Shown: piece after piece, positions 3,035 to 20,596 of the stretch
How positions within the stretch are numbered: position 1 is the first letter of the stretch
Layout: every line of letters begins with the position of its first letter
Assembly (NCBI RefSeq): GCF_016595435.1
Contig: NZ_JAENIJ010000009.1
Coordinates: 62,001 to 126,000 of the forward strand
Source: Luteolibacter pohnpeiensis
Lineage (GTDB): Bacteria > Verrucomicrobiota > Verrucomicrobiia > Verrucomicrobiales > Akkermansiaceae
Length of the DNA stretch: 64,000 nt
Direction of reading: 5' to 3'
The notes under the pieces: model-generated
What the model was told of the DNA's origin: nothing
Database searches by the model: none
What the model saw: only the letters and a program-made list of their open reading frames with translations
Made by a program: the position numbers and the translations under genes

Positions 3035-3930
3035 GACTCGGGGCGAACCCGATAAAATCCGATCGACCCTGCTCCAGTTATGGATTCGACAGTGGTGGTA
3101 TCCGTCGCAGTTACGATGCGTATCGTAGTAAATGCGGTTTTCAGGTCAGGCGACCATTCGATCACATACGTTTTCCCGGCCACGCTGTTCCAGGATAAAA
3201 GGTAATTGCCGGGAATGGAAGGATCGGCCTTTAGAACAGCCTGGAAAAATGAACTGCCGGAACTGGGATCCGTTCCAAGTTCGTATTCGTCCAGATTCGA
3301 TAGCCCGTCACCATCCAAATCGCTTGCCGCGTCGTTAACACCGACAGAAAGTCCATAGAGCAACTCCCAGCTGTCCGGCATCCCATCGGAATCGGTATCT
3401 TTCAGCTGCTCTCCGGAAGAACCCGTGTCTGTTTCCGAATCATAACTCGCATAGATCTCGTTCGACTTCGCAGTGTAATACGTGAAACGGATCGTCGTGA
3501 AATTCAAATCAAGCGTCTCCGTGGGTGATAGCGCAGTGGTAGACGCGTTCATGGAAAGCGAGGAAATGATCACCTTTCCTAACTCGATTCGCACTCGTGC
3601 CACGTCAGGCCCGGAATTGAAATCAATCGTGACCTCATCATAAGTTTCTCCAGTTACGGCACCCTCGAACAACATCGGGGAAGACTGGTCCAATGCCTTG
3701 ATCAGGCTCAGCTTGGAAAGGTAACCCGTTTCTCCTTCTACGGAGCCAGCCCTGCCGGCATTGAACCCAAAGCTCTCAATTTCAATCCAATCCGCGTGCT
3801 TGGAGTCCGTAGCATCACCTTGGATTTTGCCATCAAAATCGAGCCAGGCCAGCGTATCGCCATGCACCTGCCCTCGACATAGGCAAGCCAGCGCGGTAAT
3901 GGCGAAGAGGACTAACCGAAGTCCGCTCAT
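3031..3930 (-). CDS. Exported Hcp-like protein with thrombospondin-3-like repeats
   Basis: The 299-residue product starts with a signal peptide (about residues 1-24) and then an Hcp1-type domain (about 27-150). Visible Hcp features are the opening LDFDGKIQGDATD...DWIEIESFGF, the central ALDQSSPMLFEGAVTG, and the closing PTETLDLNFTTIRFTY strand. Next come calcium-binding thrombospondin-3-like repeats (DTDSDGMPDSWE and DLDGDGLSNLDEY, about 177-220) and a C-terminal domain with YVIEWSPDL. Classical Hcp proteins form hexameric rings of the type VI secretion tube and lack signal peptides, so a role outside the cytoplasm is inferred here. The start lies 1 bp after the stop of the second Hcp-like gene. 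Confidence 0.75.
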   Translation of the reverse strand: MSGLRLVLFAITALACLCRGQVHGDTLAWLDFDGKIQGDATDSKHADWIEIESFGFNAGRAGSVEGETGYLSKLSLIKALDQSSPMLFEGAVTGETYDEVTIDFNSGPDVARVRIELGKVIISSLSMNASTTALSPTETLDLNFTTIRFTYYTAKSNEIYASYDSETDTGSSGEQLKDTDSDGMPDSWELLYGLSVGVNDAASDLDGDGLSNLDEYELGTDPSSGSSFFQAVLKADPSIPGNYLLSWNSVAGKTYVIEWSPDLKTAFTTIRIVTATDTTTVESITGAGSIGFYRVRPES

Positions 3931-5445: not shown

Positions 5446-8400
5446 TTAGAGTGTGACAGCAAGGCGGGCGAACACCGAAGAAGCAGGCGGCTGAGGCGTA
5501 AAGGTCAGCACCGCCACCAGCTGCTCGGGATCTTCCTCTGCCTTCGAAACCACCTCTGTCTGAATCGAAGCGCTGGTGGATTTGTTCAGTTCACCTTCCC
5601 GAAACCAATTGGCCAAATCCGTGGACCATTCCACGACTGCCGTGACATCCACCGCCACTTTCGCATGCGGAAACCGAACCACAAAAGCGCCATCGTTTCG
5701 TCGCTCTGCGAGAATGACCCCGGTGTCTGAGGAATCTTTCGCGTTTGATCCCAGAAAATATTCGATCAAGTCCGGCTGCCCATCGCCGTCCTGATCCGCC
5801 AGCGGACCATCAGATTGGATCACATGGAGATAATCCTGGAGCGGGCGATCCTGAATTTCGACCGTGGCAGAGGATTTCGCACCGATGCGATAACCAGTCG
5901 AGCCAACGATCTGAAATGTTAGATTCTCAGTTCCTTCGATCTTTTGATCATTCAAAATGGTGATTTCGAGCTCCGCTGAGTCTGAACCCGCGGGGATCAT
6001 CACCGAAGTTGGGATGAGTTTGGTGTCCTGGCCTGGCGTTGCAGTGCCTTTCACCGTGAACGAAACCGGTAACGACGCCCCCGTTGGACCTTCCCGGTGA
6101 AACATGATCGCCAATCTGTCATCCTCGCGAAACTCGCCACCCACCGAGTCACTTGTCTCAACTTGAACGGTGGTTGGCGAGGCTTCTAACGGAACGATCA
6201 GGAATCGCAAATCCACCGCTTGGTGATTTCCGTTCAACTGGGGTAGATCCTGACTCAAGATCTGAAACCGATTCCCATCCGCGGACCACGAATGGATGTT
6301 ATCGGAAACATTCAGCGATGCCGTGCTGTCTCCTGTTAGAAAAAGGACGCTATTGCCGGGATGGATCACACTCCCGTTTCCCACAAGAAGCTCCTGAGAG
6401 GTGGAGGATTTGGTTCCCGTGATGTTGACAGACTCGGCATCCACGTTGAGAGGCTCAATCGTTCCATCCGATTTCATGATCCCGCTGAGGACGCCGGACG
6501 TTCCCTCGGGAATGTAGAGGAAACTGAAATCACCATCCTGCGCTGATGAGCCGTTGTCGCGCACGTCCACCGTCCAAACTCCGCCGGAACTCCGCGTTGA
6601 AATCACGTTATCTCCACTCAGTCCGCCATTGCCATTTGGGAACGCTAACAAGTTCCCAGCCGTCGAGAGTCCATAAATCTGATAGAGTCCTTTATCGCCA
6701 TGATAGATGGAGACGCCATCGGGGAGGTTGGACGAAATGATGGATCCCTCGGAGCTGATTGCCGCTCCGACCCAGCCTGCCTGATAGCTGAAAAACCCAA
6801 CGGCGGTTCCTGCTGATTCTTCCGTGCAAGTCGGGTTGGCATCAGATGCATTCGGGTTGGAATTATCATAGTTGTTAATCCAGGCATACCCATCCGTGCT
6901 TTTATAGGGACTTACGATGTTGTCATTTGAGGTCGCCGACCCATTGTCTGGAGATTCCCAATTCGAGGCTGCGATGATTCCGGAATCGAACATAATCCGG
7001 TTGCCGTTGATACGGAGTGAAATATCGCCGACGTTGCTGCCGGGACTGGTAAACTGATACGGCGCGGGCGTTGTCGCTGCAATCGACCAGCCAGGATTTA
7101 ACAATCCGGTGGAACTCGTCGAAGTATCAGGTGGCGTGGCTTTGGTGACCACCTGCACCGCAATCGGCAACGATGCACCCACCACACCATCGTTGTCCGT
7201 CGCTTTCGCAATCACGGTGTGACTGCCGGTAGGGACATCCAGCCAATCGAAGCGATAGGGTGGTTGATCAACGGCACCGATCAACCGAGTTCCGTCATAA
7301 AACTCCACTTTGGCGATCGTTCCGTCCAGATCACTTGCGGTCGCTTCCAGCGTCAAGTTGCTCGAACTTTCCACCACGGCACCATTACCCGGTTTCGAAA
7401 TCTCCACCACAGGTGGAAATTGCACTCCGCCTGTGATGAACGATTGCACGGATGAGGCAACCGTGGTCGTGCCGTCGCTTACCGTGGCATACCATTCATA
7501 GCGAGTCCCGGCCTCCAATTCATTCCAGTTGCCTGACAGGGTTCCAGCAGTGCCAGTCACAGTGGCGATTTCCGTAAATGGCCCCATGCCTCCTTTGAGA
7601 TTCACATCTAACGAAAACTGGCTGTCTTCGTCCGTTTCATATCGATCCAGCGATGGCGAATAGGTTTGCACATCGATCCGATTCAAGAGCGGCCGGAATT
7701 TCATGATGCGCAGCCAGCCATCGCCTCCATTCGTTCTCCCTTGATAGTCCGCGAGCAGCGAATGGATGGCACGACCTTCATAGTAATCCGTTCGCTGACC
7801 TTCGCCGTCGACATGCCCGCCGTGCATGAGAATCAAATTCGGATTCGATTTTAACTTCTCATAAATGGCTGCCCCCAATGGACTGAAGGCGGCTGGATTC
7901 CCAGTGTTCACCAAATGGTGCGTGATGACGATCCCTCGTCTGCCCGGGTAAGCTTTGAGAAGATCATCCGCCCACTGCAAATCCGCGGCATCGGGAGTGG
8001 TGTCATACTCCAGGCTGATCACGATGAAATCCATGCCACCCGCAGTGAACAGACAGAAGTTGTTATCGGCAGTGCTCGGTTCCGAAGTTCCGCCATAGTA
8101 AGACTTTCCAGCGAAGTGGTTGATGTGCGTTTCCGGATGCACGCCGAACCAGGTATTGAAGCCGATCGTGGTGCCATCCGCGTCACCAATTGGAGTCTGG
8201 TCATGGTTTCCAACCGCCATGACATAGGGGACTCCTTCGTTTCGCTCGGTGGTGTCTGGATCTTCCAAACGATACATCGCGTCCGATGCGTTTTTCCATT
8301 GTTCCGGAGCCGTGTCCACCCGGTCACCATTTTGACTGACATCCCCGAGGTGGAGCACAAAGCCGATGTTCAGTGCATCTCTCTCGGCGACAATCCAATC

Positions 8401-8727
8401 CGTCTGCGCGGAGAATATCGCAGCGCGATCGCCATTTTTGTTCTCAGAATAAAACTGGGTATCCGGCAGCGCGATGACCGAAAATTCATCAGCAGGATCT
8501 GCCGAGCCAACCCGACGGCCAAAAAACTTCACGGTCAGTTCGCCCGCATCTGCATCAGAAGCGGCAACCGACAACGTGGCATCCACGGGTACCCGGATGG
8601 CATCATTGGCCGGTGACAAGTCTGCGACTGTTGGTTGCTCCGCAGCACCCAGCCCGCAGGTCATCGCCAGGGCGAGAGTGGAAATGGCGCAAAAACGATG
8701 GGTATGGGTTAGATCTGCAGCGTTCAT
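5446..8727 (-). CDS. Secreted multidomain metallophosphoesterase with Ig-like and Calx-beta modules
   Basis: The start is placed at 8727, where a clean signal peptide begins (MNAADLTHTHRFCAISTLALAMTCGLGA); a longer frame would invade the upstream ligase gene. The protein is about 1,093 residues. A calcineurin-like phosphoesterase domain occupies about residues 75-370: DTQFYSE, HLGDVSQNGD, AVGNHD, VITHHLV and GGHVDG provide the metal ligands, with Gln in place of the usual His in the first DxH. A bacterial Ig-like domain follows (about 435-525), then an unrecognised beta-rich region, a Calx-beta-type domain (about 880-985), and a C-terminal module with DQDGDGQPDLIEYFLG. The substrate is unknown. 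Expected location is the envelope or outside the cell. Confidence 0.82.
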   Translation of the reverse strand: MNAADLTHTHRFCAISTLALAMTCGLGAAEQPTVADLSPANDAIRVPVDATLSVAASDADAGELTVKFFGRRVGSADPADEFSVIALPDTQFYSENKNGDRAAIFSAQTDWIVAERDALNIGFVLHLGDVSQNGDRVDTAPEQWKNASDAMYRLEDPDTTERNEGVPYVMAVGNHDQTPIGDADGTTIGFNTWFGVHPETHINHFAGKSYYGGTSEPSTADNNFCLFTAGGMDFIVISLEYDTTPDAADLQWADDLLKAYPGRRGIVITHHLVNTGNPAAFSPLGAAIYEKLKSNPNLILMHGGHVDGEGQRTDYYEGRAIHSLLADYQGRTNGGDGWLRIMKFRPLLNRIDVQTYSPSLDRYETDEDSQFSLDVNLKGGMGPFTEIATVTGTAGTLSGNWNELEAGTRYEWYATVSDGTTTVASSVQSFITGGVQFPPVVEISKPGNGAVVESSSNLTLEATASDLDGTIAKVEFYDGTRLIGAVDQPPYRFDWLDVPTGSHTVIAKATDNDGVVGASLPIAVQVVTKATPPDTSTSSTGLLNPGWSIAATTPAPYQFTSPGSNVGDISLRINGNRIMFDSGIIAASNWESPDNGSATSNDNIVSPYKSTDGYAWINNYDNSNPNASDANPTCTEESAGTAVGFFSYQAGWVGAAISSEGSIISSNLPDGVSIYHGDKGLYQIYGLSTAGNLLAFPNGNGGLSGDNVISTRSSGGVWTVDVRDNGSSAQDGDFSFLYIPEGTSGVLSGIMKSDGTIEPLNVDAESVNITGTKSSTSQELLVGNGSVIHPGNSVLFLTGDSTASLNVSDNIHSWSADGNRFQILSQDLPQLNGNHQAVDLRFLIVPLEASPTTVQVETSDSVGGEFREDDRLAIMFHREGPTGASLPVSFTVKGTATPGQDTKLIPTSVMIPAGSDSAELEITILNDQKIEGTENLTFQIVGSTGYRIGAKSSATVEIQDRPLQDYLHVIQSDGPLADQDGDGQPDLIEYFLGSNAKDSSDTGVILAERRNDGAFVVRFPHAKVAVDVTAVVEWSTDLANWFREGELNKSTSASIQTEVVSKAEEDPEQLVAVLTFTPQPPASSVFARLAVTL

Positions 8728-8833: not shown

Positions 8834-10405
8834 TCATTCAGCCAACCGGAGCTGTCTCCGCAACTCAGGGTAATCGATTTTGGCGTTGTGCCTCCGATCC
8901 AGCGGAATCGCAGGCAAATAAACGATTTTCGACATCCCGAAATCTGCCGCCAAAGTTTCGATCTCAACGGTGGGGGCGAATTCCTGCGATTGGCCGATCA
9001 CTAATAGTCGCTGGTCATTCCAAGCCATTGCGGCGATCCGGATCGTTGGAAATTTCTCACGAAATGCGCATTCGATAGCAAACGGGTAACGCATCGCTTC
9101 AGCCGGCAAATCCGTAGGCGCCGGAAACATTGGAAGTTTCTCCGAGCATCTGCCTAACAACCAGATTCGTCCCTCCGCATCGAACCAACCCGCATCGCCC
9201 GTACGATGCCACACCGCACCATCCACATGGACCTTGGTTTCTTCATCGCCGATTCCGCCGAGATAGCTTTTCAACACGTGCTCGCCAGTGACCATGATTT
9301 CACCCGCCTGGCCGGAATCGACTTGCAGATCATCAAATTCAGCCTGCCGCAATGGGCCCAAGGGCGTCCCCCAATGATCGCGGATGACCCGCAGCTGAAT
9401 CAGATTCACAGGCTTTCCAGAGCACAACCCGCCGCCCTTCCGAGTCAGCTCGGCGGAGCATTCAACATCATCCGCAGAGAAATGTGCCATGGGCTCGGCC
9501 TCGGTGGAACCGTAGACCGAATCAATCACCGCATCGGTTAGATCCGCTCGCAAGCGGCGCAATAAATCCGGAAAAACAGGTGCACCACCGGTGTATAATT
9601 TTCTAAATTCCGGCAGTGCTCCAGCGCGTTGTAAGGCGTCGAAAAATGCAGGAGAACCGGCACAACGGGTCACTTGCTGCCGCTTTACCTGCGATTGGAT
9701 CGCTTCGATATCCGGCTCACCTGGTTTGGCCAAGTTGGTTGCAGCAAGCACACTTGTTAGACCCGATGCCAGATTCGCCAGGACGAAAACCGGCAACGTG
9801 ATCAGGTCGACCTCGCCTTCTTGAAAGTCCAGAGCCTCTGATAATGCCCGGTGCTGGGCCATCAAAAAACCATGAGTCCGCATCGCAGCCTTCGGGAGTC
9901 CGGTGCTGCCACTGGTGAAAGTGATCAAGGCAGGTTCGTCATCCGGGACATCCAACAAGGGTAAATTCCCGAGGTCCGTCCGCCATGCCCGGGTCCGTGG
10001 AAACCACGCACCAGACCGAATCGCAATGGGAATCCGTCGCAATTCGGGAACCGACATTCTGAGGCACTGGGCTTTCCAAGAACCAAAAAACGCATCCGGC
10101 TGCAATCGCTGGCAACATAACGATAGGAAATGCTTTCCCGCCGATGGATCAGCCAGCATGACGCGAAGCCCGGCATGAAAGGCAGCCAGAAGAAACTCAT
10201 ACAGCTCGATGGATACCGGCTGGAAAACCAAGATGACTTGTCCACGCTTCAACCCAATGCGGTCTAACAGAGCCGCACCTGCCGCGACTCGTTTCCCTAG
10301 ATCTCGAAAAGAAACCACGCGGTCGGCTCCACCTTTGACATCAACCAATGCTGGCTGGTCTGGATGTTTTCTCGCCCGGTCCTCTAACAGCTTAACCAGA
10401 TTCAT
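8834..10405 (-). CDS. AMP-forming acyl-CoA ligase/synthetase (ANL superfamily)
   Basis: The 523-residue protein is a full-length adenylate-forming enzyme. The ATP-phosphate loop is FTSGSTGLPKAAMRTH (about residues 173-188), and further signatures are YTGGAP, DSVYGSTEAEPM and the hinge-side HRTGDAGWFDAEGRIWLLGR. The C-terminal catalytic Lys region is present as RRHNAKIDYPELRR. It should activate a carboxylic acid as acyl-AMP and pass it to CoA or another acceptor. The overall pattern is closest to OleC-type and long-chain acyl ligases, but no OleA or OleD homologue is nearby. It is the last gene of the HMG-CoA reductase operon and starts 2 bp after the GNAT-like gene ends. Confidence 0.85.
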   Translation of the reverse strand: MNLVKLLEDRARKHPDQPALVDVKGGADRVVSFRDLGKRVAAGAALLDRIGLKRGQVILVFQPVSIELYEFLLAAFHAGLRVMLADPSAGKHFLSLCCQRLQPDAFFGSWKAQCLRMSVPELRRIPIAIRSGAWFPRTRAWRTDLGNLPLLDVPDDEPALITFTSGSTGLPKAAMRTHGFLMAQHRALSEALDFQEGEVDLITLPVFVLANLASGLTSVLAATNLAKPGEPDIEAIQSQVKRQQVTRCAGSPAFFDALQRAGALPEFRKLYTGGAPVFPDLLRRLRADLTDAVIDSVYGSTEAEPMAHFSADDVECSAELTRKGGGLCSGKPVNLIQLRVIRDHWGTPLGPLRQAEFDDLQVDSGQAGEIMVTGEHVLKSYLGGIGDEETKVHVDGAVWHRTGDAGWFDAEGRIWLLGRCSEKLPMFPAPTDLPAEAMRYPFAIECAFREKFPTIRIAAMAWNDQRLLVIGQSQEFAPTVEIETLAADFGMSKIVYLPAIPLDRRHNAKIDYPELRRQLRLAE

Positions 10406-10407
10406 TT

Positions 10408-11394
10408 TTATCGAGCGAAAAGTGAATAGCGCCGGAACGTTTCACCATGATGGCGTGTGGTGATTCGCCGCACATTGTTATCATCAAACTGCAACACATG
10501 AAGTGCTGTGGAAAATCCCTTCTGATAGCCTAACATCTGAACTTCATCGACTAACACACTGCCAAGTCCGGGGCATCTTGCTTCGGGATCGACGGCAAGG
10601 GTTTTGATGATCAAAGCAGGCTTCTCCCCACGCGCCGCGGCTTCGAGGTCCGCAATCGCAAACACGAATCCACAAGCGACACCGTCTCGCTCTACAATTT
10701 TTACCAGCTCTGCGTCGATGCGGTCTTTTAGCTTTCGATACGCTCCCAAAAACCCTTCCTCAGACAATGGGGTGTAGAGAAAATTCGAAGCGAAGCTCTT
10801 CAAGCAAATCGTATAAATCGCCCGGAGCTCCTCCTCATATCGATTCAAGTCGATCGGGCGGATCGTAAGTCCTGATTTCAAAAGGCGCTTTTTCAGCGCA
10901 TCAGCGACCGTCGGTTGGCCATCCAATAAAATCGTCGATGACGAATAAGCCGCTATTTCATGAAATCCTGCCGCCCTCCACCACTCCGGATACGATGCCG
11001 GATTCCGTGGCTCTAACAAAAACGGCCCGCGCCCTGTGCTTTCGGCGATGTAGCGATAGCGTCTCCAGGTATTGCCATTCATAGGGCCTACCACTTTTTG
11101 CACGCCCTGCGCCTGCAATTCCTTGACCGCAGCTTCAAGTAACGCAACCGCTTCAATTTCGCCAAGGGCCGCAAATCCCCCGATCGCACCAACCTCATTG
11201 CCCTCGAGGCATGGGGTGTGATTCCACCACAAGGCCGTGTGAGCTACCGCCTGACCCTGAGCATTCAGCAAAAAAATCCGGCCATCCGGCATTTCGGACA
11301 TCGGCGCGAGTTCGTCTGGAGAAGGCAAACCTTCTAACAAAGGAAGGGGAGGTATATCCGATGACGGATAAAAGCGGATATCTGAATGGTTCAT
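10408..11394 (-). CDS. GNAT-like acyltransferase of a lipid-associated operon
   Basis: The start is set at 11394, giving MNHSDIRFYPSS and a 4-bp ATGA overlap with the upstream membrane-protein gene; the longer frame would run through that gene. The 328-residue product has a C-terminal half with GNAT-like character: an acceptor strand (IIKTLAVDPEARCPGLGSVLVDEV, quoted here in part as LAVDPEARCPGLG) resembling the acetyl-CoA pyrophosphate loop. The N-terminal half contains GPMNGNTWRRYRY and may be a second, degenerate GNAT fold. The acyl acceptor cannot be told. Its position between a lipid-kinase-like protein and an acyl ligase suggests N- or O-acylation of an intermediate from the same pathway. 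Confidence 0.65.
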   Translation of the reverse strand: MNHSDIRFYPSSDIPPLPLLEGLPSPDELAPMSEMPDGRIFLLNAQGQAVAHTALWWNHTPCLEGNEVGAIGGFAALGEIEAVALLEAAVKELQAQGVQKVVGPMNGNTWRRYRYIAESTGRGPFLLEPRNPASYPEWWRAAGFHEIAAYSSSTILLDGQPTVADALKKRLLKSGLTIRPIDLNRYEEELRAIYTICLKSFASNFLYTPLSEEGFLGAYRKLKDRIDAELVKIVERDGVACGFVFAIADLEAAARGEKPALIIKTLAVDPEARCPGLGSVLVDEVQMLGYQKGFSTALHVLQFDDNNVRRITTRHHGETFRRYSLFAR

Positions 11395-12713
11395 GATTTG
11401 ATTAACAGTGCGGGAATGGATGACAGCAATGCGGTGATCCCTTTGATCAACCAGAGACGTGTTGGATGATGGTAAACCTGTGGTCGCACTTTGCGGAAAA
11501 TCAGAATCACACACGCGGACCCGATCAACGCGATCAAGAACGGCACCAGCAGCTCGGACATTTCAGGCCACAACCAAACCAATCCTGGCAGCGCCCCAAG
11601 CACCCAGCCTTTCGTCATCGAATGTGCCAGGGTGGAAGGTCGGTCATGCAGCCACCATTTTGTCGCCATGTCCATGATTCCCAGGAGGGATGCGATGGCA
11701 AAGGACACGCCAGCCAGGCCCGATTGATGACTGATGATGCCTCGTTCAACCAAAATCACCCATGGCAAGCAGCTGATCGCGTGAGCAAGTATCGCATCCA
11801 GGCGATGATCAAAAACACCGAGCAGCCGGTTTTTTCTGGTGGTGATAATATGACATACGAAAACCGCGATCAGAGGCAGCGCGAATCGAAAATCCGCCAG
11901 AATCGCACAACCATATCCGAGTAAAGCAGCACCTAACAAAGCCCCTCCATTCAGAGTGGACCACTTCGATGTACCTAATACCAAAGTCAACATGGCAATC
12001 AGTGCGATGGATCGTGCAAGCAAGGCAGCGTGGTCCAAGGGCAGCATTCGATTCAGCACAAAAAACGCCCCTAGAGGGATGATCAGGTTGTCAAAGCCAC
12101 GATCCGCCAGCCCTTCCGCCATCATGGCAAGTATCGCCAAAATCAGTGCGATCCAAGTGGCGTTGAGCCAGTAATATCCGCCCAGGATGATGAGTGGCAT
12201 GGAAACGCAAAAGAAAGCTGCTACCAAAAAAACAAGTGACCCTTCGATGGTCTTCCACCCATCACCGCATCCGTAGCGCCGCTTTCCCCATTTGGTTCCG
12301 GCCAATGCACCTGCGGCATCTGCGATGGTTAGAATCCCGATCGGAATGACATGCAGCAAGGCCCGCCCGGCAGCCAACTGGAAAACCAACGCCACCGAAG
12401 GAGCAAACAAGACTTCGCCATAAGATGGCCTGCCGACCCCGTGCAATGCAGCTCCAATCCCGGCCTTCCACTTTGGCACGAGCCTCAAAACCGTAAGCGG
12501 AACGGTAGCCATCGCCGCCAACACCCACACCGGAACCGGCCCATCAAAGATCCATGGAAATGCCGCGCACAGCAATCCCATCATCACATGGACCGATTTC
12601 CTCGCTACCTCAGGACTGGCGCCAAGCTGAACCGTTAGAAATCGGATCAGTGGCATACCAGCCAGCAATCCGAAAAGCACGGCGAAGACCGAAGGCCAGT
12701 CCCGCAAACTCAT
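11391..12713 (-). CDS. Polytopic membrane protein, phytol/dolichol kinase-like (CTP-dependent family)
   Basis: This 440-residue protein is hydrophobic throughout, with roughly a dozen membrane segments. The first half has the signatures of the SEC59/VTE5 polyprenol-kinase and cytidylyltransferase-like group: RKSVHVMMGL (about 38-47), then ADAAGALAGTKWGKRRYG and WKTIEGSLVFLVAAF (about 130-165), where the Asp, the Gly-spaced loop and the EGS motif bind the nucleotide. The second half (about 230-440) adds extra membrane helices that I cannot assign. Phosphorylation of an isoprenoid alcohol is a reasonable guess given the prenyltransferase and HMG-CoA reductase in the same operon. Both ends overlap neighbouring genes by 4 bp. 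Confidence 0.7.
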   Translation of the reverse strand: MSLRDWPSVFAVLFGLLAGMPLIRFLTVQLGASPEVARKSVHVMMGLLCAAFPWIFDGPVPVWVLAAMATVPLTVLRLVPKWKAGIGAALHGVGRPSYGEVLFAPSVALVFQLAAGRALLHVIPIGILTIADAAGALAGTKWGKRRYGCGDGWKTIEGSLVFLVAAFFCVSMPLIILGGYYWLNATWIALILAILAMMAEGLADRGFDNLIIPLGAFFVLNRMLPLDHAALLARSIALIAMLTLVLGTSKWSTLNGGALLGAALLGYGCAILADFRFALPLIAVFVCHIITTRKNRLLGVFDHRLDAILAHAISCLPWVILVERGIISHQSGLAGVSFAIASLLGIMDMATKWWLHDRPSTLAHSMTKGWVLGALPGLVWLWPEMSELLVPFLIALIGSACVILIFRKVRPQVYHHPTRLWLIKGITALLSSIPALLIKS

Positions 12714-13816
12714 CGAACAACCTCCTCGACCACAAAGCGACTGTAGAAAAAGGCGCGATCCTGTTGGAAAAGCTGCTCAGCCAGTTCCGGCAACAATTTC
12801 AACTTGTTAGACAGTCGCTCGGGCCTGGATCGCGGAGCCAGCATATTCCAATAAGCCAGACGCGCTCCCGGGTTCGAGACCTCAACAATCTTTTCTAACA
12901 ATGATCCGGTATTCTCTTCGTTCATGTATTCGAAGATATCGCTCAAATTGTAGGCATCATACCTCCGTTCCGGCTCCTGCTCGAAAAGCGCTTCGATCGG
13001 TTGATTGAGGATTCTAAATCTGCCTTGTTCGAGAGCACTACGTATCAAATGAAAGTTCTTCTCCTCAAGAGCCTCGGGCAGGTGGGAACCGTGAGTGCCT
13101 GTTAGAATCCAATGCAGATAGGGATTTGCTGACGGTTCCAACTCCACCAAGGCATGCTTCGTTCTGGCAAGGATGCGATCCGCCACGGAGCCTTCGACGT
13201 ATTTGAAAAACTCACGATCTCTGCCCAAAGCTCCCATTGTCTTGCGCGAGAAAAACAACTGGAAGATTGCCCGCCACCGCCAGTGGTTCCAGACCTTGTC
13301 GTAAAATTGAATTCGACCTCCATGATCCCGAGGTATGAGCAATTGATTCACTCGCGATTTTCGATGCGCCAGAGGCAGCACATAATTTCGGAACAATCGG
13401 AAATAATTCTCAAACTTTCCACAACCGCCGATGCCATTCTCGATGATTTCTTTCTTCGCATCCCAAAATGCCTGGACATCGGGCTCCAAACCGCCGCGGC
13501 AGCGTCGGTATAAATCGAATCGATGGTTGCAGGGTCTCGAACCTATCAGCTCCAGAAATTCCACGTGGGTTAGATGCAAGTATGCCTCGCGTCGTAGCTG
13601 GATGCAGGCAATCTGTGCCGGGTTCATTTCAACGGCCGTCACATGCGCCGCTCCAGCTGCCAGGAGCGCGAAACTATTGTCGCCTGCGGAACCAATGCTC
13701 AGGCAATCCCTCCCCGCAGGATCCAGCGCGCCGACTAACAGCTTGGAGTCTTCCCAACACTGGGCGTATCGCACATTTGAAAAATCGGCACGATTTTGAA
13801 TCTCGGATTGCTTCAT
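12710..13816 (-). CDS. DUF3419 family, BtaA-like aminocarboxypropyl transferase
   Basis: The 368-residue protein belongs by pattern to the BtaA/DUF3419 family, whose founding members transfer the 3-amino-3-carboxypropyl group of S-adenosylmethionine to diacylglycerol in betaine-lipid synthesis. The characteristic opening RYAQCWEDSKLL (about residues 16-27), the nucleotide loop LSIGSAGDNSFALL (about 39-52) and TAVEMNPAQIACIQLR (about 60-75) are all present. The C-terminal region holds YNLSDIFEYM. The usual partner BtaB, an N-methyltransferase, is not seen in this window. Instead it sits with isoprenoid enzymes, so the acceptor may be a prenylated or otherwise unusual lipid. Genes on both sides overlap by 4 bp. 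Confidence 0.75.
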   Translation of the reverse strand: MKQSEIQNRADFSNVRYAQCWEDSKLLVGALDPAGRDCLSIGSAGDNSFALLAAGAAHVTAVEMNPAQIACIQLRREAYLHLTHVEFLELIGSRPCNHRFDLYRRCRGGLEPDVQAFWDAKKEIIENGIGGCGKFENYFRLFRNYVLPLAHRKSRVNQLLIPRDHGGRIQFYDKVWNHWRWRAIFQLFFSRKTMGALGRDREFFKYVEGSVADRILARTKHALVELEPSANPYLHWILTGTHGSHLPEALEEKNFHLIRSALEQGRFRILNQPIEALFEQEPERRYDAYNLSDIFEYMNEENTGSLLEKIVEVSNPGARLAYWNMLAPRSRPERLSNKLKLLPELAEQLFQQDRAFFYSRFVVEEVVR

Positions 13817-16254
13817 GATGCATCAGCACGTTCTAAAATTTTGACCTCACCGGTGGAGCCGTCCATTTGAACGACGTCACCGGTTTTTAAAATCCCGGTG
13901 ATATTTGGGAGGGAAACAATGCAGGGCAATCGAAGCTCCCGCGAAACAATCGCCGAATGCGACAGCAGGCTGCCTCGCTCGACCAGCAACCCTGAAGCCG
14001 CAGGGAAAAGCACAACCCATCCTGGATCCGTCTGCAGTGCCACCAGAATCTCTCCTGATTCCAAGCGCGCTGTTTTCGGATCTAACACCACACGCACTTT
14101 TCCCGTTCGGATGCCAGGACAAGCTCCGGTTCCTTTCAGGCTGCTGCCGTCATAGACGGGGATTTCAGGTGAACCCGAGGATGCCACGAATTCGCGGTAT
14201 CGATGGGCGGGGCCATGAGTCTGAAATCGATCGGGTGGAGGACTTTCCAGTTGATAGATCTTGAACTCAGCACGCCGTTGGTCGGCAAGTTTCGCATAAT
14301 CGAGCACCGTCCCGGTTCCCTCCCAGGCTGCGAGGATTTCCTGCAATTCCAGATAGAAAACATCTTCAGGCGCATTCAACTGCCCATCGGCATAAAGGCG
14401 TTTTCCTAACTCTCGCAGGATCGAACGGACACGACCAAAAAGACGGGTTCGCTCGAAGCGCAAGTTCTCACGGCACCGGACTTTTTCCCGAGTTTGGTTC
14501 AGGACATAGTGGAAGATCCAGCGTTTGAGCGGGTTTTCGATCCGCGGAGCCTCTGTCTGTGAAATGATCGATTCCGCTGGAAATGTCCCGCGCAATGCAA
14601 GCGCGCCGATCGATGAAAGTAAGGTCGCGGAATGATCGCGGACAGTCGGGCTTTCCAATTTGAGCTCCTCAAGGCATCGATCACCGAATTCGTTCAGATA
14701 GCTTTCGAATTCCTGCTGCAATTTCTCATGCTTCTTGAGAGCAGCGAGCTTCTCGCGCTCGCCCGCTGTCGGACTCGCCAGTAGCGTGGCAAGCTCCGGA
14801 GAATCTGCCGCTAACTTGGCCATTCGGATGATCCGGCGCGGCGGCTCAGCACTGATGATCCCTCCAGTATTTGCCAGGAGTTCGTTTTGCAGCGTCCCTG
14901 CCTGATCACCGATCCATTTCCCGCAGAGACCACGGAGAACTCCGTAGAAGATCATGGCGAAGAAATCATTCACCAGTGGCGCATCCCACCGCTTCAGAAG
15001 TTGCCGCTCCAATTCCCGATAATGCGCGACCAATTCCTCGCCGCTCATCCGGCTGAGCGCGATGGGTGGGGCTGCTAACGATCGATTGAGTCGATGCTGA
15101 AACTCACGAACTTGCCTGGGTAAACCGAGCTGACGCCGGATGAGGCCGAAACAAGTCCGAATCAGGGCGAGAGTATCCGAAATCCGATTGGTTTTCGATT
15201 CCTCAATGATCGACTGGACCAGTGAACCCGGAAGCGGCTCTTTCACTCCCATCATTTGTTCCATGAAATTACGATTCACCTGAAAGCCCGGCAAAAGCGC
15301 GAGAACCCGATACCAACTACCAAGATTGTAGTACGTTCGACCACGGATCAGCCCGAGCATTTGAGGAAAAACGTCGTCTGCTCTGGCAATCCGTGAAGCA
15401 GGCACCGACATGAGCCTGCAGAACTCGCGGTAAACGGATTCATAGATTCTGCGGGCAAACGAAAAGGTGAGAGGCGTGGTCACTCCGCCATAACTTTCGG
15501 CAATGTTGCTGTTGTCCCAAACCCGCAATAGATCCGTCGGGTCTGGCTGCTTCGCCAAAGTTGTTATCGGCCGGGATTGCAACAGCCATAACTTGCCGGA
15601 TGCATCGACAGCCCATTCGATATCCTGGGGGCGCCCGAAGTGGAGTTCACAATCCGCTGAAAGCTTCGCGACTGCGAGCCCTTCGGCTTCTGTTAGAATG
15701 GATTGATCCGGTCGGGCCCTAACATTTCCCAGACGATCGATTTCCCAGGTTTCTCCATCGACTTCGCCAGAAACCAATTTTTCACCCGTCCCTTGGACTG
15801 CTGCGATGACTGACAGGCCGCGTTCACCACGGACCGGGTCCGCGCTGAAGGCGACACCAGCGGCCTTTGGATTGATCATTCGCTGAACAATGACTGCAGG
15901 TGCACCCGGTGGATCAATTCCTTGCTCCCAACAGTATGAAATCACGGATTCACTTCGCGCCGAACTGCGAACCGCTTCGATTTTCTCCACCACCTCTGGT
16001 TTTTCCACATGAAGAAACGTGTCGAACTGGCCGGCAAAGGAATGAGCAGCACCATCTTCTGCCAAGCCCGAGGATCGCACCGCGAATTGGACCCCGCCTA
16101 TTTTCTTCAGGGCATCGGTGATTGCACCAGGATCGATCGACTCCTGCGGTAAGATCGCAAACCAGTCGGGAACAGGGAAGTCAGCGCTTTGCAAGTCAGC
16201 CAGCGCATTGCCTTTGCCGCCAAAACGGTGGGATTGATCGGGAAATTCAGGCAT
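13813..16254 (-). CDS. PEP-synthase-like phosphotransferase (PPDK N-terminal plus PEP-utiliser His domain)
   Basis: The 813-residue protein has an ATP-grasp-like PPDK N-terminal domain (about residues 10-235, with AVRSSGLAEDGAAHSFAG and PQDIEWAVD...LWLLQSRPI), a helical middle region, and a C-terminal mobile domain carrying the phosphorylatable His in SLLSHSAIVSREL (His766 by my count). The C-terminal PEP/pyruvate barrel of true PEP synthase is missing. That makes it like the rifampin-phosphotransferase type, where ATP energises His and a phosphate is moved to a small-molecule hydroxyl. The substrate is probably an intermediate of this operon and not pyruvate. It starts 3 bp after the UbiA gene ends and overlaps the next gene by 4 bp. 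Confidence 0.8.
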   Translation of the reverse strand: MPEFPDQSHRFGGKGNALADLQSADFPVPDWFAILPQESIDPGAITDALKKIGGVQFAVRSSGLAEDGAAHSFAGQFDTFLHVEKPEVVEKIEAVRSSARSESVISYCWEQGIDPPGAPAVIVQRMINPKAAGVAFSADPVRGERGLSVIAAVQGTGEKLVSGEVDGETWEIDRLGNVRARPDQSILTEAEGLAVAKLSADCELHFGRPQDIEWAVDASGKLWLLQSRPITTLAKQPDPTDLLRVWDNSNIAESYGGVTTPLTFSFARRIYESVYREFCRLMSVPASRIARADDVFPQMLGLIRGRTYYNLGSWYRVLALLPGFQVNRNFMEQMMGVKEPLPGSLVQSIIEESKTNRISDTLALIRTCFGLIRRQLGLPRQVREFQHRLNRSLAAPPIALSRMSGEELVAHYRELERQLLKRWDAPLVNDFFAMIFYGVLRGLCGKWIGDQAGTLQNELLANTGGIISAEPPRRIIRMAKLAADSPELATLLASPTAGEREKLAALKKHEKLQQEFESYLNEFGDRCLEELKLESPTVRDHSATLLSSIGALALRGTFPAESIISQTEAPRIENPLKRWIFHYVLNQTREKVRCRENLRFERTRLFGRVRSILRELGKRLYADGQLNAPEDVFYLELQEILAAWEGTGTVLDYAKLADQRRAEFKIYQLESPPPDRFQTHGPAHRYREFVASSGSPEIPVYDGSSLKGTGACPGIRTGKVRVVLDPKTARLESGEILVALQTDPGWVVLFPAASGLLVERGSLLSHSAIVSRELRLPCIVSLPNITGILKTGDVVQMDGSTGEVKILERADAS

Positions 16255-16257
16255 CGG

Positions 16258-17157
16258 TTAGATCAAGTGATGGATGGCAAGTGGGATCAGTCCCAAGAGA
16301 AGATAGAGCATCAAAGTCCAGATTGCTGAAAAATGTTCGATTCGCCGACCATGCGTTGAATTCGTGACATACTGGATCGCCAATGGAATGGAGCCGATAA
16401 AGGCCAGGCCCAACGGAATGGATAGAAGTAAGACATGGCCGGTCTCACGTGCAGCGAGCGCCGCACTAACAAGTGTGCCTAACAACGCGGCAAGCCAGAC
16501 AAGAACGCCCCCTCGTTTTCCCCAAAGCCGACTGTAGGTCTCCACTCCTTCTTCCTCGTCCTCAGGCTGCCGAAGCTTCCGGCCGATTTCGATCACCACG
16601 CCATTGCAAAAGCTGGCTGTTAGAAACCATCCCAAACCATGCGGAGCATGTCCCGATCGAGGCATCCAATCGCAGGCGGTCGCAAAAAAATCGACCAGCG
16701 GCATGATTCCCATGTGAGTCAGCAGGTAAATCACCGGCCGTTTTTTCAGCCAATTTCTGCAGAAAAACTCAACACTCATCAAAGCCAGATAGGACCAGGC
16801 AATCGCCAGGACCCATAGCAGCCTCGGATCCAGCCAAAGAGCCAGAGCGAGCTGAGAAATGGCAGCAGCAATGAAAACCAAACGCAACTCGGAAAGCTTC
16901 ACCAACCCCCGTGGCACCGGGCGGTACGGCCGCCACCGCGCATCCTCATCCGCGTCCTTGAACTCATCCGCAATTCTCAATTGCAAAAACATCAACAGAC
17001 AAACCAAGAAGGCCACGCCATAGGTCGCCGGTCCTGGCGGGGCAGCGCCGCGAATCAAACTTGAAAATGAAACCGCGCAGGCACTGAAGGCGGCGATCAA
17101 TGGCGCATGAGCCACGACCGGAAACCGCTCCTTTTGATAGATCCACCAACGTTTCAT
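16258..17157 (-). CDS. UbiA-superfamily prenyltransferase
   Basis: The start is placed at 17157 (MKRWWIYQKERFP), 20 bp after the HMG-CoA reductase stop; the longer frame overlaps that gene. The roughly 299-residue product has about eight membrane helices. The first Asp-rich motif, which binds Mg2+ and the prenyl diphosphate, reads RIADEFKDADEDARWRPYRP (a variant of NDxxDxxxD), and the second polar loop contains IEIGRKLRQPEDEEEG. These enzymes attach an isoprenoid chain to an aromatic, sugar or glycerol-phosphate acceptor in the membrane. No quinone-pathway gene is adjacent, so the acceptor is open. The gene is the second in the operon led by HMG-CoA reductase. Confidence 0.8.
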   Translation of the reverse strand: MKRWWIYQKERFPVVAHAPLIAAFSACAVSFSSLIRGAAPPGPATYGVAFLVCLLMFLQLRIADEFKDADEDARWRPYRPVPRGLVKLSELRLVFIAAAISQLALALWLDPRLLWVLAIAWSYLALMSVEFFCRNWLKKRPVIYLLTHMGIMPLVDFFATACDWMPRSGHAPHGLGWFLTASFCNGVVIEIGRKLRQPEDEEEGVETYSRLWGKRGGVLVWLAALLGTLVSAALAARETGHVLLLSIPLGLAFIGSIPLAIQYVTNSTHGRRIEHFSAIWTLMLYLLLGLIPLAIHHLI

Positions 17158-17177
17158 GATGAGATAGTACGATGGAT

Positions 17178-18461
17178 CTACGACTTGCCAGTGCGCGCGA
17201 GTTTCCGGTGAGCTCGGGAAAAATGTCCGGCACACAAGGCTGCGATGATGGAAAGCTCACCTGCCAGAAGCAGGGCTGCGCAGACTTCTGATAAAGCCCG
17301 GGCTTTTCCCGCTCCCGCCAGGCCCATCAGTTCCAGGCACGCCTTTTGGCTGGGTAATCCGGTGCCACCACCGACGGTGCCAATCATGATACCCGGAAGG
17401 GTCACCGTCGCGTAAAGATTGCCATCTTCCGTGACTTCAAACCGGGTCACTCCGGTCGCGGATTCTGCAACGCATGCCGCGTCCTGGCCCGTGGCCAGAT
17501 ACAGCGCCGCCAGCCCGTTTGCGAAATGGCCGTGGACACCTATCGTGCCGCTAAGAACTCCTCCGATCGCTGACATTTGCCAATATTCGACCATGGCCTT
17601 CGGTGTCGTATGCAAAAGTTTCGCGACCAATTCGGCTGGGATGATCGCCTCAGCCGTCACTTTTTTCCCACGAGTCGAATGGTATGCACGGGCGCTGGCT
17701 TTTTTATCGCCGGAAAGATTGGATTCCACGTAAAAGCGAAGTGGTGTGACCGGCGCCGTCGCCATGATCTGATCGCATATCGCCTGAGTCGCCAAGGTGA
17801 CCATATTCTGGCCGGAAGCATCTCCCGTGGTGAATTCGAAGTTCAGGTAAACGTGATTCCCTTCAACCGTGCAGCCGATGTCGACCAGTTTCCCATGAGA
17901 GGTCGTCGTCGCTGCAATTCGTTCGAACTCCTCAAACATCGACATCGCCCAAACGACGAACTGGCAGGCTTCGGAAGTGGTTTTGAAAACGAAAGCTGGT
18001 GCACGATTTACATTTTCATAAAGAACCAGAGTCGAGCATCCACCGGCACTTGTTAGAACCCGGCAACCTCGATGATAACTCGCAACCAAGGCAGCTTCCG
18101 TCGTTGCCAGAGGGATCAAAAAGTCTCCTTTTGCAGCCAAACCGTTCACCCGCAGCGGGCCTGCGATACCAATCGGCAAACGAAGGAAGCCGATCGCATT
18201 TTCAATATTGCCCTGATAGGCAGTTACATCATCCGTCACCGAGTCTAACAAGATCTTGCGCAAATCCGGCTTGGCTCCGGATTTCTCCCACCATCGGCTC
18301 ATCCGCTCGCGGGAGACCTTTGCCGTTCCCTGAGAAACCTCCGGCAATCCATCCAAATCGGGCATCAACCTCTGGGCCGCACTGGCCAAATCATCCGGGC
18401 CCAACATCCTCTCCGCATGCAACCGGGTGAGATCTCTCTTTCCTGCCATGGTGGGAACCAT
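17178..18461 (-). CDS. hmgA: Class I hydroxymethylglutaryl-CoA reductase
   Basis: This enzyme reduces HMG-CoA to mevalonate with NAD(P)H, the committed step of the mevalonate isoprenoid pathway. The 427-residue protein has no membrane anchor. Family signatures are ENAIGFLRLPIGIAGPL (88-103), TTGDASGQNM (211-220) and GTVGGGTGLPSQKACLELMG (361-380). All four catalytic residues of the family can be placed: Glu122 in TTEAAL, Lys in SGDKKA (253/254), Asp327 in GQDA, and His413 in CAGHFSRAH. Most verrucomicrobia are expected to make isoprenoids by the MEP route, so its presence at the head of a lipid operon is notable. A second in-frame ATG at 18449 is an alternative start. Confidence 0.9.
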   Translation of the reverse strand: MVPTMAGKRDLTRLHAERMLGPDDLASAAQRLMPDLDGLPEVSQGTAKVSRERMSRWWEKSGAKPDLRKILLDSVTDDVTAYQGNIENAIGFLRLPIGIAGPLRVNGLAAKGDFLIPLATTEAALVASYHRGCRVLTSAGGCSTLVLYENVNRAPAFVFKTTSEACQFVVWAMSMFEEFERIAATTTSHGKLVDIGCTVEGNHVYLNFEFTTGDASGQNMVTLATQAICDQIMATAPVTPLRFYVESNLSGDKKASARAYHSTRGKKVTAEAIIPAELVAKLLHTTPKAMVEYWQMSAIGGVLSGTIGVHGHFANGLAALYLATGQDAACVAESATGVTRFEVTEDGNLYATVTLPGIMIGTVGGGTGLPSQKACLELMGLAGAGKARALSEVCAALLLAGELSIIAALCAGHFSRAHRKLARTGKS

Positions 18462-18615: not shown

Positions 18616-20463
18616 TCAGCCGCGGTTGCTGCGGTCTTCGGCGCCTGCGCCGACTTTGGCAGCGCGCTTGCGGGCGTTGGCATCGAGGATGCGCTTGCGC
18701 AGGCGGATGTTTTGCGGGGTCGCTTCCACCAGCTCGTCCGCGTCGATGTATTCGATCGCACGCTCAAGCGAGAATCGCACCGGAGGGGTGAGCTTGGAAG
18801 TTTTGTCCTTACCGGAGGAACGCATGTTATCGAGGTGCTTTTCCTTCACAGGGTTGACCGGAAGGTCGCCGACCCGTGGGTTTTCACCCACCAACATGCC
18901 GCCGTAAACCGCGTCGCCAGGGGCAACGAACAGGATGCCGCGATCTTCGAGGGATTGCAGCGAGAACGGGGTGGCAGCGCCGGCTTCCATCGAAACCAGG
19001 GTGCCGGTGGTGCGGTTCTGGATTTCACCGGCGTGCGGTGCGTATTCCTTGAAAAGGTGGGACATGATGCCGTGACCGGAAGTCAGGTTCACGAGCTCGG
19101 TTTCGAAGCCGATCAAACCGCGGGTTGGGATGGTGGCTTGGATGAACACACGGCCGGATGCCTCGGTGTCCATGTTTTCCATCATGCCTTTGCGGTTCAT
19201 CAAGATCTTGAGGATGCCCTGGGTGTAATCGCCTGGAGCCTCAACATAGAGTGTTTCGAAAGGCTCAAGCAATTGGCCACCTGCATCGCGGCGGAAAATC
19301 ACGACAGGTCGGGAAACCAGCACCTCGAAACCTTCGCGGCGCATTTGCTCCACCAAAACGGCGATCTGCATCGAGCCACGGGCGGAAACGTCGAACACAC
19401 CGGATTGGTCGGTATCTTCCACGGTGATCGAAATGTTGGTCTTCAGCTCGCGCATCAGGCGATCGCGAATCGCACGGGAAGTCACGTGCTTGCCTTCCTT
19501 GCCGGCCAGCGGGCCGTCGTTGATCGAGAACTGCATCGAAACGGTCGGAGGATCGATCGCAACGAAAGGAAGCGGCTCTTGTTCGACGGAACCTGCGAGG
19601 GTTTCACCGATGGCGACGTCTTCGATACCAGCGGCAACGCCGACGATGCCGCCTGCGCTACAACCTTCCGAGTCCGCTGTTGCGAGGCCGGAGTAGGTGA
19701 AGGTTTTCATCACCTTCGATTGAACTTTGGTGCCGTCCTCGCGGAGGAGGTAAACGGTGTCGCCTTTTTTCACGCTGCCGCCGAGGACCTTGCCGATGGC
19801 AACACGGCCCACGTAGTCGTCCCACTCGATGTTCGAGACGAGCATGAGAAAAGGGGCTTCCGGGTCAGCTTTTGGCTCAGGGATGTGCTCGACGATCTTT
19901 TCCAGCAAAGGAATGCAGTCTTTGCGCTCACCGTCCGGGCTGTCCATGAAGTAGCCATCGCGGGCGGAGCCGTAAACGAAAGGTGCGTTGAATTGATCTT
20001 CATCGGCGTCCAGATCGAGCAGCAGCTCAAGAACCTGGTCGCGGACTTTTTCAGGAGTGGCGAGCGGGCGGTCGATCTTGTTGATCACCACGATCGGCTT
20101 GAGGCCTTCCTGCATCGCCTTCCGCAGCACGAAGCGGGTTTGCGCTTGAGGACCGCCGGACGCGTCCACCACGAGCAGCACGCCGTCGACCATTTTCATC
20201 ACGCGCTCCACCTCCGCGCCGAAGTCGGCGTGGCCCGGGGTGTCGACGATGTTGATGGTGTAATCGTTCCAAAGAATGGCGGTGTTCTTCGCCTTGATGG
20301 TGATGCCCTTTTCTTTTTCAAGGTCCATCGAATCCATTGCGCGCTCCTGCGTCGCTTGGTTCTCACGGTATGTTCCGCCAGCCTGAAGCAGCTGATCGAC
20401 AAGGGTGGTCTTGCCGTGGTCAACGTGGGCGATGATGGCGAGGTTGCGAATTTTCAGAGACAT
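18616..20463 (-). CDS. typA: Translational GTPase TypA/BipA
   Basis: TypA is a ribosome-associated GTPase of the EF-G family, involved in 50S assembly and stress adaptation. The start at 20463 gives [20 protein letters not shown], placing the P-loop AHVDHGKT near residues 12-19; the longer frame only adds an unrelated leader. Further GTPase signatures are [18 protein letters not shown] (switch I region), DTPGHADFG and INKIDRP. The C-terminal TypA-specific portion has RGLIGFE and [10 protein letters not shown]. The length of 615 residues is normal. Codon choice is strongly biased to G/C-ending codons, as expected of a highly expressed gene. The gene contains no TGTTAGA heptamer. Confidence 0.97.
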
Positions 20464-20596
20464 GAGAAGTGGAGGTACGGATTGACTTTCCGGGCAGCGG
20501 TGCGGGGCTATGCACGGTTTTTCCGCCTGTGGCAAGGCGGGATTCGCCTAAATTCGGCAGTTTTTTGAAACTTCCGCCCTGAAAAACCGATCAAAA

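Follow-up and report, generated by a model that had tools for sequence, protein, structure and literature searches.

Class I 3-hydroxy-3-methylglutaryl-CoA (HMG-CoA) reductases (HMGR), such as the human (1dq8), plant (8ecg/7uli) and archaeal-type (6hr7) enzymes, belong to one fold family with a catalytic Glu, Lys, Asp and His, and a published structural study describes K735 and S684 as residues that hold the HMG carboxylate, K735 by a salt bridge (PMC9500038). BtaA, a member of the DUF3419 family, carries WED and SxGxN motifs, and in a rhizobial btaA locus (L083) a methyltransferase gene directly follows the DUF3419 gene. Phosphoenolpyruvate (PEP) synthase, PigC/RedH and rifampicin phosphotransferase combine an ATP-grasp with a phospho-His domain, and rifampicin phosphotransferase is not known to have a PEP barrel. 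Relatives of these proteins, together with a protein resembling phytol/dolichol kinases and the CdsA fold, are encoded side by side in a seven-gene operon of Luteolibacter pohnpeiensis, located within the 64,000-nt stretch analysed here and referred to as the window (contig NZ_JAENIJ010000009.1, positions 62,001–126,000). No description of this seven-gene set was found in the open-licence literature searched.

The seven open reading frames were confirmed on the minus strand of the window at 8834–18461, exactly where the first-pass annotation, made from this DNA alone, had placed them, and its six junctions of 20, 3, −4, −4, −4 and 2 bp were reproduced on recomputation with the UbiA start at 17157 and the GNAT start at 11394. 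The HMGR gene probably begins at 18449 (MAGK...) rather than at 18461, since most members of the family begin there. Pfam assigned six of the seven proteins, leaving the membrane protein without a family. In the order of transcription, the genes are as follows:

17178–18461, minus strand: HMGR-like reductase (HMGR), Pfam HMG-CoA_red 378.1 bits
16258–17157, minus strand: UbiA-superfamily membrane transferase (UbiA), Pfam UbiA 61.5 bits
13813–16254, minus strand: PEP-synthase-like phosphotransferase (PEPu), Pfam PPDK_N 156.6 and PEP-utilizers 76.8 bits
12710–13816, minus strand: DUF3419 protein, predicted S-adenosylmethionine (SAM) 3-amino-3-carboxypropyl transferase, Pfam DUF3419 197.1 bits (cut-off 28.2)
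11391–12713, minus strand: membrane protein, predicted lipid-alcohol kinase (kinase), with a CdsA-like N domain and a C-terminal membrane domain
10408–11394, minus strand: tandem-GNAT acyltransferase (GNAT), Pfam Acetyltransf_1 32.5 bits
8834–10405, minus strand: AMP-forming acyl ligase (ligase; PRK09274/OleC-like), Pfam AMP-binding 159.5 bits

With moderate confidence, we read these genes as a single biosynthetic cassette, retained and transferred whole, for an amino-acid-bearing lipid-like metabolite, in which the reductase would yield an alcohol other than mevalonate. In an alignment of 49 operon HMGRs (the window protein and those of 48 loci; reference positions in human numbering), the HMG-CoA_red domain and the catalytic Glu, Lys, Asp and His were present in every sequence, and the equivalents of E559, R590, N686, D690, K691, K692, N755, D767 and H866 were likewise kept in 49/49. 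The substrate pocket was different from that of class I HMG-CoA reductases: the S684 position was Glu in 49/49 (E246 in the window) and Ser in none, the M657 position was Gln in all 49, and the K735 position was always non-basic (Met 29, Val 10, Thr 4, Ala 3, Phe 2, Leu 1; Lys 0/49), with M296 in the window protein. Five PDB sequences of human, plant and archaeal enzymes (a sixth, 8pkn, was left out), aligned to the family profile, keep both S684 and K735, as does a Streptomyces HMGR encoded within a complete mevalonate cluster. Thus, the first-pass claim of a class I HMG-CoA reductase with all catalytic residues holds for the catalytic machinery, but the residues of the substrate pocket are not those of HMG-CoA reductase.

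The same division was found in a second set of 288 genomes of the window's phylum, which was not selected by any cassette gene. There, the HMGR profile splits into two classes, with 11 places scoring ≥519 bits and 51 scoring ≤271 bits. Ser and Lys were present in 20/20 of the examined low-class proteins (drawn non-randomly from both ends of the list; five of them sit in genomes also carrying the operon kind), and Glu without Lys in 7/7 of the newly examined high-class proteins, the copies in G265, G330 and G100 being left out of this check; the E559 column, misaligned in the low-class HMGRs, was not used. The two pocket residues divide both kinds in every phylum sequence examined, and the split follows whether or not a genome has the mevalonate pathway. 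In a FastTree tree of 84 HMGRs, the 20 low-class proteins and the Streptomyces mevalonate-cluster enzyme formed one group, and a clade of 60 tips (support 0.956) contained 56 cassette copies, a Roseinatronobacter copy and three Vibrio orphans. The operon protein is, by sequence, HMGR-like, its catalytic residues intact and its acyl pocket changed, and its job looks different from making mevalonate.

The genomic background of the cassette is consistent with this reading, most hosts lacking a mevalonate pathway. The window genome (98.84% complete) gave one HMGR match and one DXR, and a profile search for HMG-CoA synthase and mevalonate diphosphate decarboxylase (PF01154 and TIGR01240, model cut-offs) gave no match over cut-off in it. 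DXR was present in 19/19 cassette genomes searched, the L069 genome having been left out. Within the phylum, HMG-CoA synthase and the decarboxylase were both over cut-off in 20/20 genomes with an examined Ser/Lys HMGR and in 0/12 cassette genomes without an ordinary HMGR (p 4e-9), the 12 comprising six with a high-class HMGR only (two typed by score alone) and six with a DUF3419 gene and no HMGR; in three of them the decarboxylase profile gave weak matches near 20 bits. Five phylum genomes with the mevalonate pathway carry a separate Ser/Lys HMGR besides the operon kind. Some controls not known for the mevalonate pathway, such as E. coli, also match the families of HMG-CoA synthase and the decarboxylase, so the positives for these genes are less certain than the negatives. 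Since both partners are missing, the operon HMGR does not appear to serve mevalonate supply in these phylum genomes, and the annotation "hydroxymethylglutaryl-CoA reductase" for such proteins credits bacteria of the methylerythritol phosphate (MEP) pathway with a stray mevalonate enzyme.

The gene set itself recurs widely. A scan of genome contigs with the PEP-synthase-like protein as the query yielded 164 relatives, the best 80 of which were kept. All seven genes were present in 39/80 loci (one gene being shortened in two of the 39, and contig ends cutting many of the other 41); the window order, HMGR-UbiA-PEPu-DUF3419-kinase-GNAT-ligase, was found in 28 of the 80 and the order GNAT-ligase-HMGR-UbiA-PEPu-DUF3419-kinase in 11. 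As labelled, the complete loci span nine phyla: Verrucomicrobiota (14), Gammaproteobacteria of the Pseudomonadota (7), Bacteroidota/Rhodothermota (5), Planctomycetota, Acidobacteriota and Gemmatimonadota (3 each), Trueperaceae of the Deinococcota (2), Cyanobacteriota (1) and Desulfobulbus (1), although most of the 39 come from metagenome bins and individual taxon labels could be mistaken. In Roseinatronobacter sp. S2, too, all seven genes lie together on a plasmid, with the HMGR gene spanning the start of the record. Mean identity within the seven families was 36 to 60% across loci. For the window and 37 loci with full-length copies, divergence was correlated in 21/21 gene pairs (Spearman 0.32 to 0.89; each reached in 0/200 permutations), a correlation to which common descent of the hosts contributes.

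In the 288 phylum genomes, the DUF3419 profile matched 17, and all 11 genomes with a high-class HMGR were among these 17 (Fisher p 5e-16). A survey of 14 stretches from 13 of the 17 revealed cyclic rearrangements of the gene order: HMGR-DUF3419-kinase-GNAT-ligase-UbiA-PEPu (L126), ligase-UbiA-PEPu-HMGR-DUF3419-kinase (L128), DUF3419-kinase-GNAT-ligase-UbiA-PEPu (L133, L135) and UbiA-PEPu-DUF3419-kinase-GNAT-ligase (L136); L139 has the window's order, and in G275 the HMGR and DUF3419 genes are solitary, on separate contigs. The occurrence of the same set and order in other phyla, together with the 11/11 co-occurrence of HMGR and DUF3419, is more than chance would give, and this supports the earlier suggestion that the genes form one undescribed pathway. 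Neither of the observations that, by the first-pass annotation, would have refuted it was made, with one reservation: the gene order proposed for a search in other genomes is conserved widely, but the spread of the set is patchy within the window's own genus, where a full-length PEPu relative (~65% identity) was present in 3/36 sampled genomes.

The UbiA protein keeps the first Asp motif (D64, E65, D68 and D72 in 72/72), but where a weak alignment with DGGGP synthase and chlorophyll synthase places the second, there are R193 and K194 in 72/72 and R196 in 71/72. Because the second Asp motif is replaced by Arg/Lys, the usual Mg-diphosphate site is doubtful, and with it ordinary prenyl transfer; the UbiA domain named in the first-pass annotation is present, whereas the prenyl transfer ascribed to it is doubtful. 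PEPu has its phospho-His (H766) in 80/80, eight of its ATP-grasp positions are conserved in 76–80 of the 80 sequences, and a Pfam search at E 0.1 detected no PEP/pyruvate barrel in it, just as had been described. It differs from rifampicin phosphotransferase, PigC/RedH and PEP synthase in scoring below every NCBIfam cut-off shown and in having a central domain of its own with many near-invariant residues. PDB sequence searches with the DUF3419 protein gave nothing useful. The GNAT protein has a tandem-GNAT fold by structure comparison, and the ligase has an AMP-binding domain of the ANL type.

The kinase-like membrane protein had no Pfam family in the window, and DUF92 was weakly matched in 4/29 relatives. 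Its AlphaFold2 model (pLDDT 91.5) gave no Foldseek match at E 0.001 or better; in a fold comparison, CdsA came first for its N domain, with Z 8.7–9.1 against 6.7 for the next rows, a modest score for a helical protein. Twelve positions are invariant in 49/49, and the RK, D, KxxEG and DN motifs resemble those of phytol kinase. The protein exists in a short form and in a long form with an extra C-terminal membrane domain, by which the long form differs from phytol/dolichol kinases. Aminocarboxypropyl transfer, acylation and phosphorylation, all foreseen by the first-pass annotation, are the likely chemistry of the cassette, to judge by the families concerned.

In the proposed scheme, the acyl ligase would activate a carboxylic acid, and the HMGR-like enzyme would use 2 NADPH in reducing the thioester to a primary alcohol other than mevalonate. 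The membrane protein would phosphorylate a lipid alcohol and the PEP-synthase-like protein another intermediate via its phospho-His, and the UbiA protein would draw on a phosphorylated donor to attach a lipid chain to the core. A 3-amino-3-carboxypropyl group would be added from SAM by the DUF3419 protein, and the GNAT would acylate the newly made amine. Each step, like the identity of the product, is suggested by family membership, and the order of the steps is a guess. The acyl-activating company of HMGR-like genes, namely the cassette ligase and a GH3-family gene just upstream in Streptomyces, was counted in favour of this reading, as were a carboxylic-acid-reductase-like protein in three cyanobacterial loci that lack HMGR and the folds of the kinase-like and GNAT proteins.

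Several points weigh against it. The pocket argument is made by homology, and the partner of E246 could simply be R131 or K254; moreover, K735 loss is wider than the cassette, since copies from Alteromonas, Streptomyces NBC_01435 and Sinorhizobium outside the operon clade also lack this residue. HMG-CoA synthase gave a match over cut-off in one of the 19 cassette genomes (G008, 39.3 bits). The kinase call stems from motif resemblance and from a modest fold match; at a Z of about 9, one helical protein will often match another simply through the arrangement of its helices. The reduction step is not universal: HMGR was missing from the genomes of 14 of the 16 loci searched, these 14 being the loci without an HMGR gene, so that HMGR is an optional module of the cassette. 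The carboxylic-acid-reductase-like protein occurs in three HMGR-less cyanobacterial loci (L054, L062, L070; one Pfam-checked), but this family is not a clean HMGR replacement, because L013 and L075 have both.

A lipid is also not the only conceivable product. A soluble natural product, for which PEPu would act like PigC/RedH and phosphorylate one building block for joining to another, would fit the patchy spread, the tailoring genes near some loci (P450 genes in 9/80, three of them Pfam-checked, and sulfotransferase genes in 4, two of them checked) and the NCBIfam scores of PEPu for RedH (294.9 bits) and PigC (262.8 bits), both far under their cut-offs. However, these two models are outscored by the phosphoenolpyruvate synthase model (703.8 bits, also under its cut-off), and UbiA and the kinase-like protein, both of them membrane enzymes, point to a lipid together with the BtaA relative, so that we consider a soluble product unlikely.

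Still less probable is that the aminocarboxypropyl group itself is reduced. Here, the DUF3419 protein would add the group, the ligase would activate its carboxylate, the HMGR-like enzyme, its E246 facing the ammonium, would produce a 2-amino-alcohol, and the GNAT would form a ceramide-like amide. The invariant Glu at the pocket, the position of DUF3419 directly after HMGR in four phylum loci (L126, L127, L128, L130) and an amino-acid-hydroxylase-type 2-oxoglutarate (2OG) oxygenase in cyanobacterial variants favour this scheme, but the cassette also exists without HMGR, and the window HMGR adjoins UbiA, not DUF3419.

That mevalonate from a genuine HMG-CoA reductase goes into prenyl groups which UbiA attaches to an unusual lipid, as the first-pass annotation had proposed from the class I HMGR domain, the catalytic residues and the UbiA gene in one operon, is very improbable, and mevalonate supply was rejected in view of the rebuilt HMG carboxylate pocket, the missing pathway partners and the separate Ser/Lys HMGR of the genomes that do have the pathway. 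A betaine-lipid variant, with BtaA-like transfer to diacylglycerol, fares just as poorly: the DUF3419 domain and the conserved N-terminal WED and SxGxN motifs are common to the operon protein and rhizobial BtaA, but the operon protein forms its own subfamily, sharing 28/67 near-invariant positions and reading LSDIFEYM where the rhizobial protein reads LLDAQDWM, none of the seven genes encodes a BtaB-type methyltransferase, whereas a methyltransferase gene adjoins rhizobial btaA, and the six further genes have no place in betaine lipid synthesis, so that the betaine-like lipid suggested earlier was not upheld.

The lipid cassette with a non-mevalonate reductase thus remains our preferred reading. 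In its wider form, it amounts to an undescribed, widespread lipid pathway, whose reductase would be a new branch of the HMGR superfamily acting as an NADPH-dependent acyl-thioester reductase, from acid to alcohol, alongside an adenylating ligase, and with the Vibrio orphans and at least one Streptomyces copy in or beside this branch and not making mevalonate; we hold this wider proposal to be evenly balanced. If true, it would name a new reductase function, offer an explanation for the orphan Vibrio HMGRs and point to a lipid-like product made across nine or more phyla, which could be searched for by comparing carriers with close cassette-less relatives.

The orphan Vibrio HMGRs are found in L085 (Vibrio sp. 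THAF190c), L086 (V. fluvialis plasmid) and L087 (V. campbellii), at ~11900–13250 of each locus. Their pockets have Asp, Met and Gln, and in none of the three loci examined was another cassette gene found within 12 kb. Being inside the operon clade and sharing its changed pocket, they are probably not HMG-CoA reductases. In Streptomyces sp. NBC_01435 (L089:6287-9230), an HMGR-like gene with a Glu/Ala/Gln pocket lies directly after the GH3-family gene. On an Alteromonas macleodii plasmid (L088:2268-9029), genes for a T_hemolysin GNAT, an AMP-ligase, a haem-oxygenase-like protein and a short-chain dehydrogenase/reductase (SDR) stand in a row; the HMGR-like gene (Ala/Tyr/Gln pocket) is downstream, with the SDR, AMP-ligase and T_hemolysin GNAT 1.8 to 4.9 kb upstream of it. 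An HMGR-like gene without K735 and with a changed cis loop is part of an acyl-CoA carboxylase operon on a Sinorhizobium medicae plasmid (L091:4902-6146), and its product perhaps acts on yet another substrate.

Variant cassettes were also observed. Four loci with the short-form kinase (L036, L041, L046, L048) have no HMGR; a link between HMGR and the long-form kinase was considered and dropped, since L016 has the long form in a genome without HMGR, as also seems to be the case for L133 and L135. Upstream of UbiA, eight cyanobacterial loci have two additional genes, one for a radical SAM protein and one for a membrane protein that Pfam does not match; this pair recurs inside the cassette in L130 (51% and 48% identity). 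The radical SAM/SPASM gene and its membrane-protein partner, which has neither a Pfam nor an NCBIfam match, are located at L038:5995-8735 (cyanobacterial) and L130:5058-7357 (window's phylum). Between PEPu and DUF3419, L054:12330-18343 encodes the carboxylic-acid-reductase-like protein, with AMP-binding, carrier and NAD_binding_4 domains, an HpcH aldolase and a 2OG-Fe oxygenase (PF10014). At the same position, L077:2595-7273 has two overlapping long open reading frames, the first of which encodes an MMPL/HAE3-type transporter (Pfam, NCBIfam), a possible exporter of the cassette product.

In the window, the operon is preceded on the same strand by TypA/BipA (18616–20535) and followed by a gene whose product combines metallophosphoesterase, Ig and Calx-beta domains (5446–8709); there is no reason for counting either into the cassette. 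A promoter/terminator scan gave no more than shuffled sequence gives. Elsewhere in the window, at 3031–3930, a single protein carries both an Hcp-type domain (PF05638) and a bacterial TSP3 repeat.

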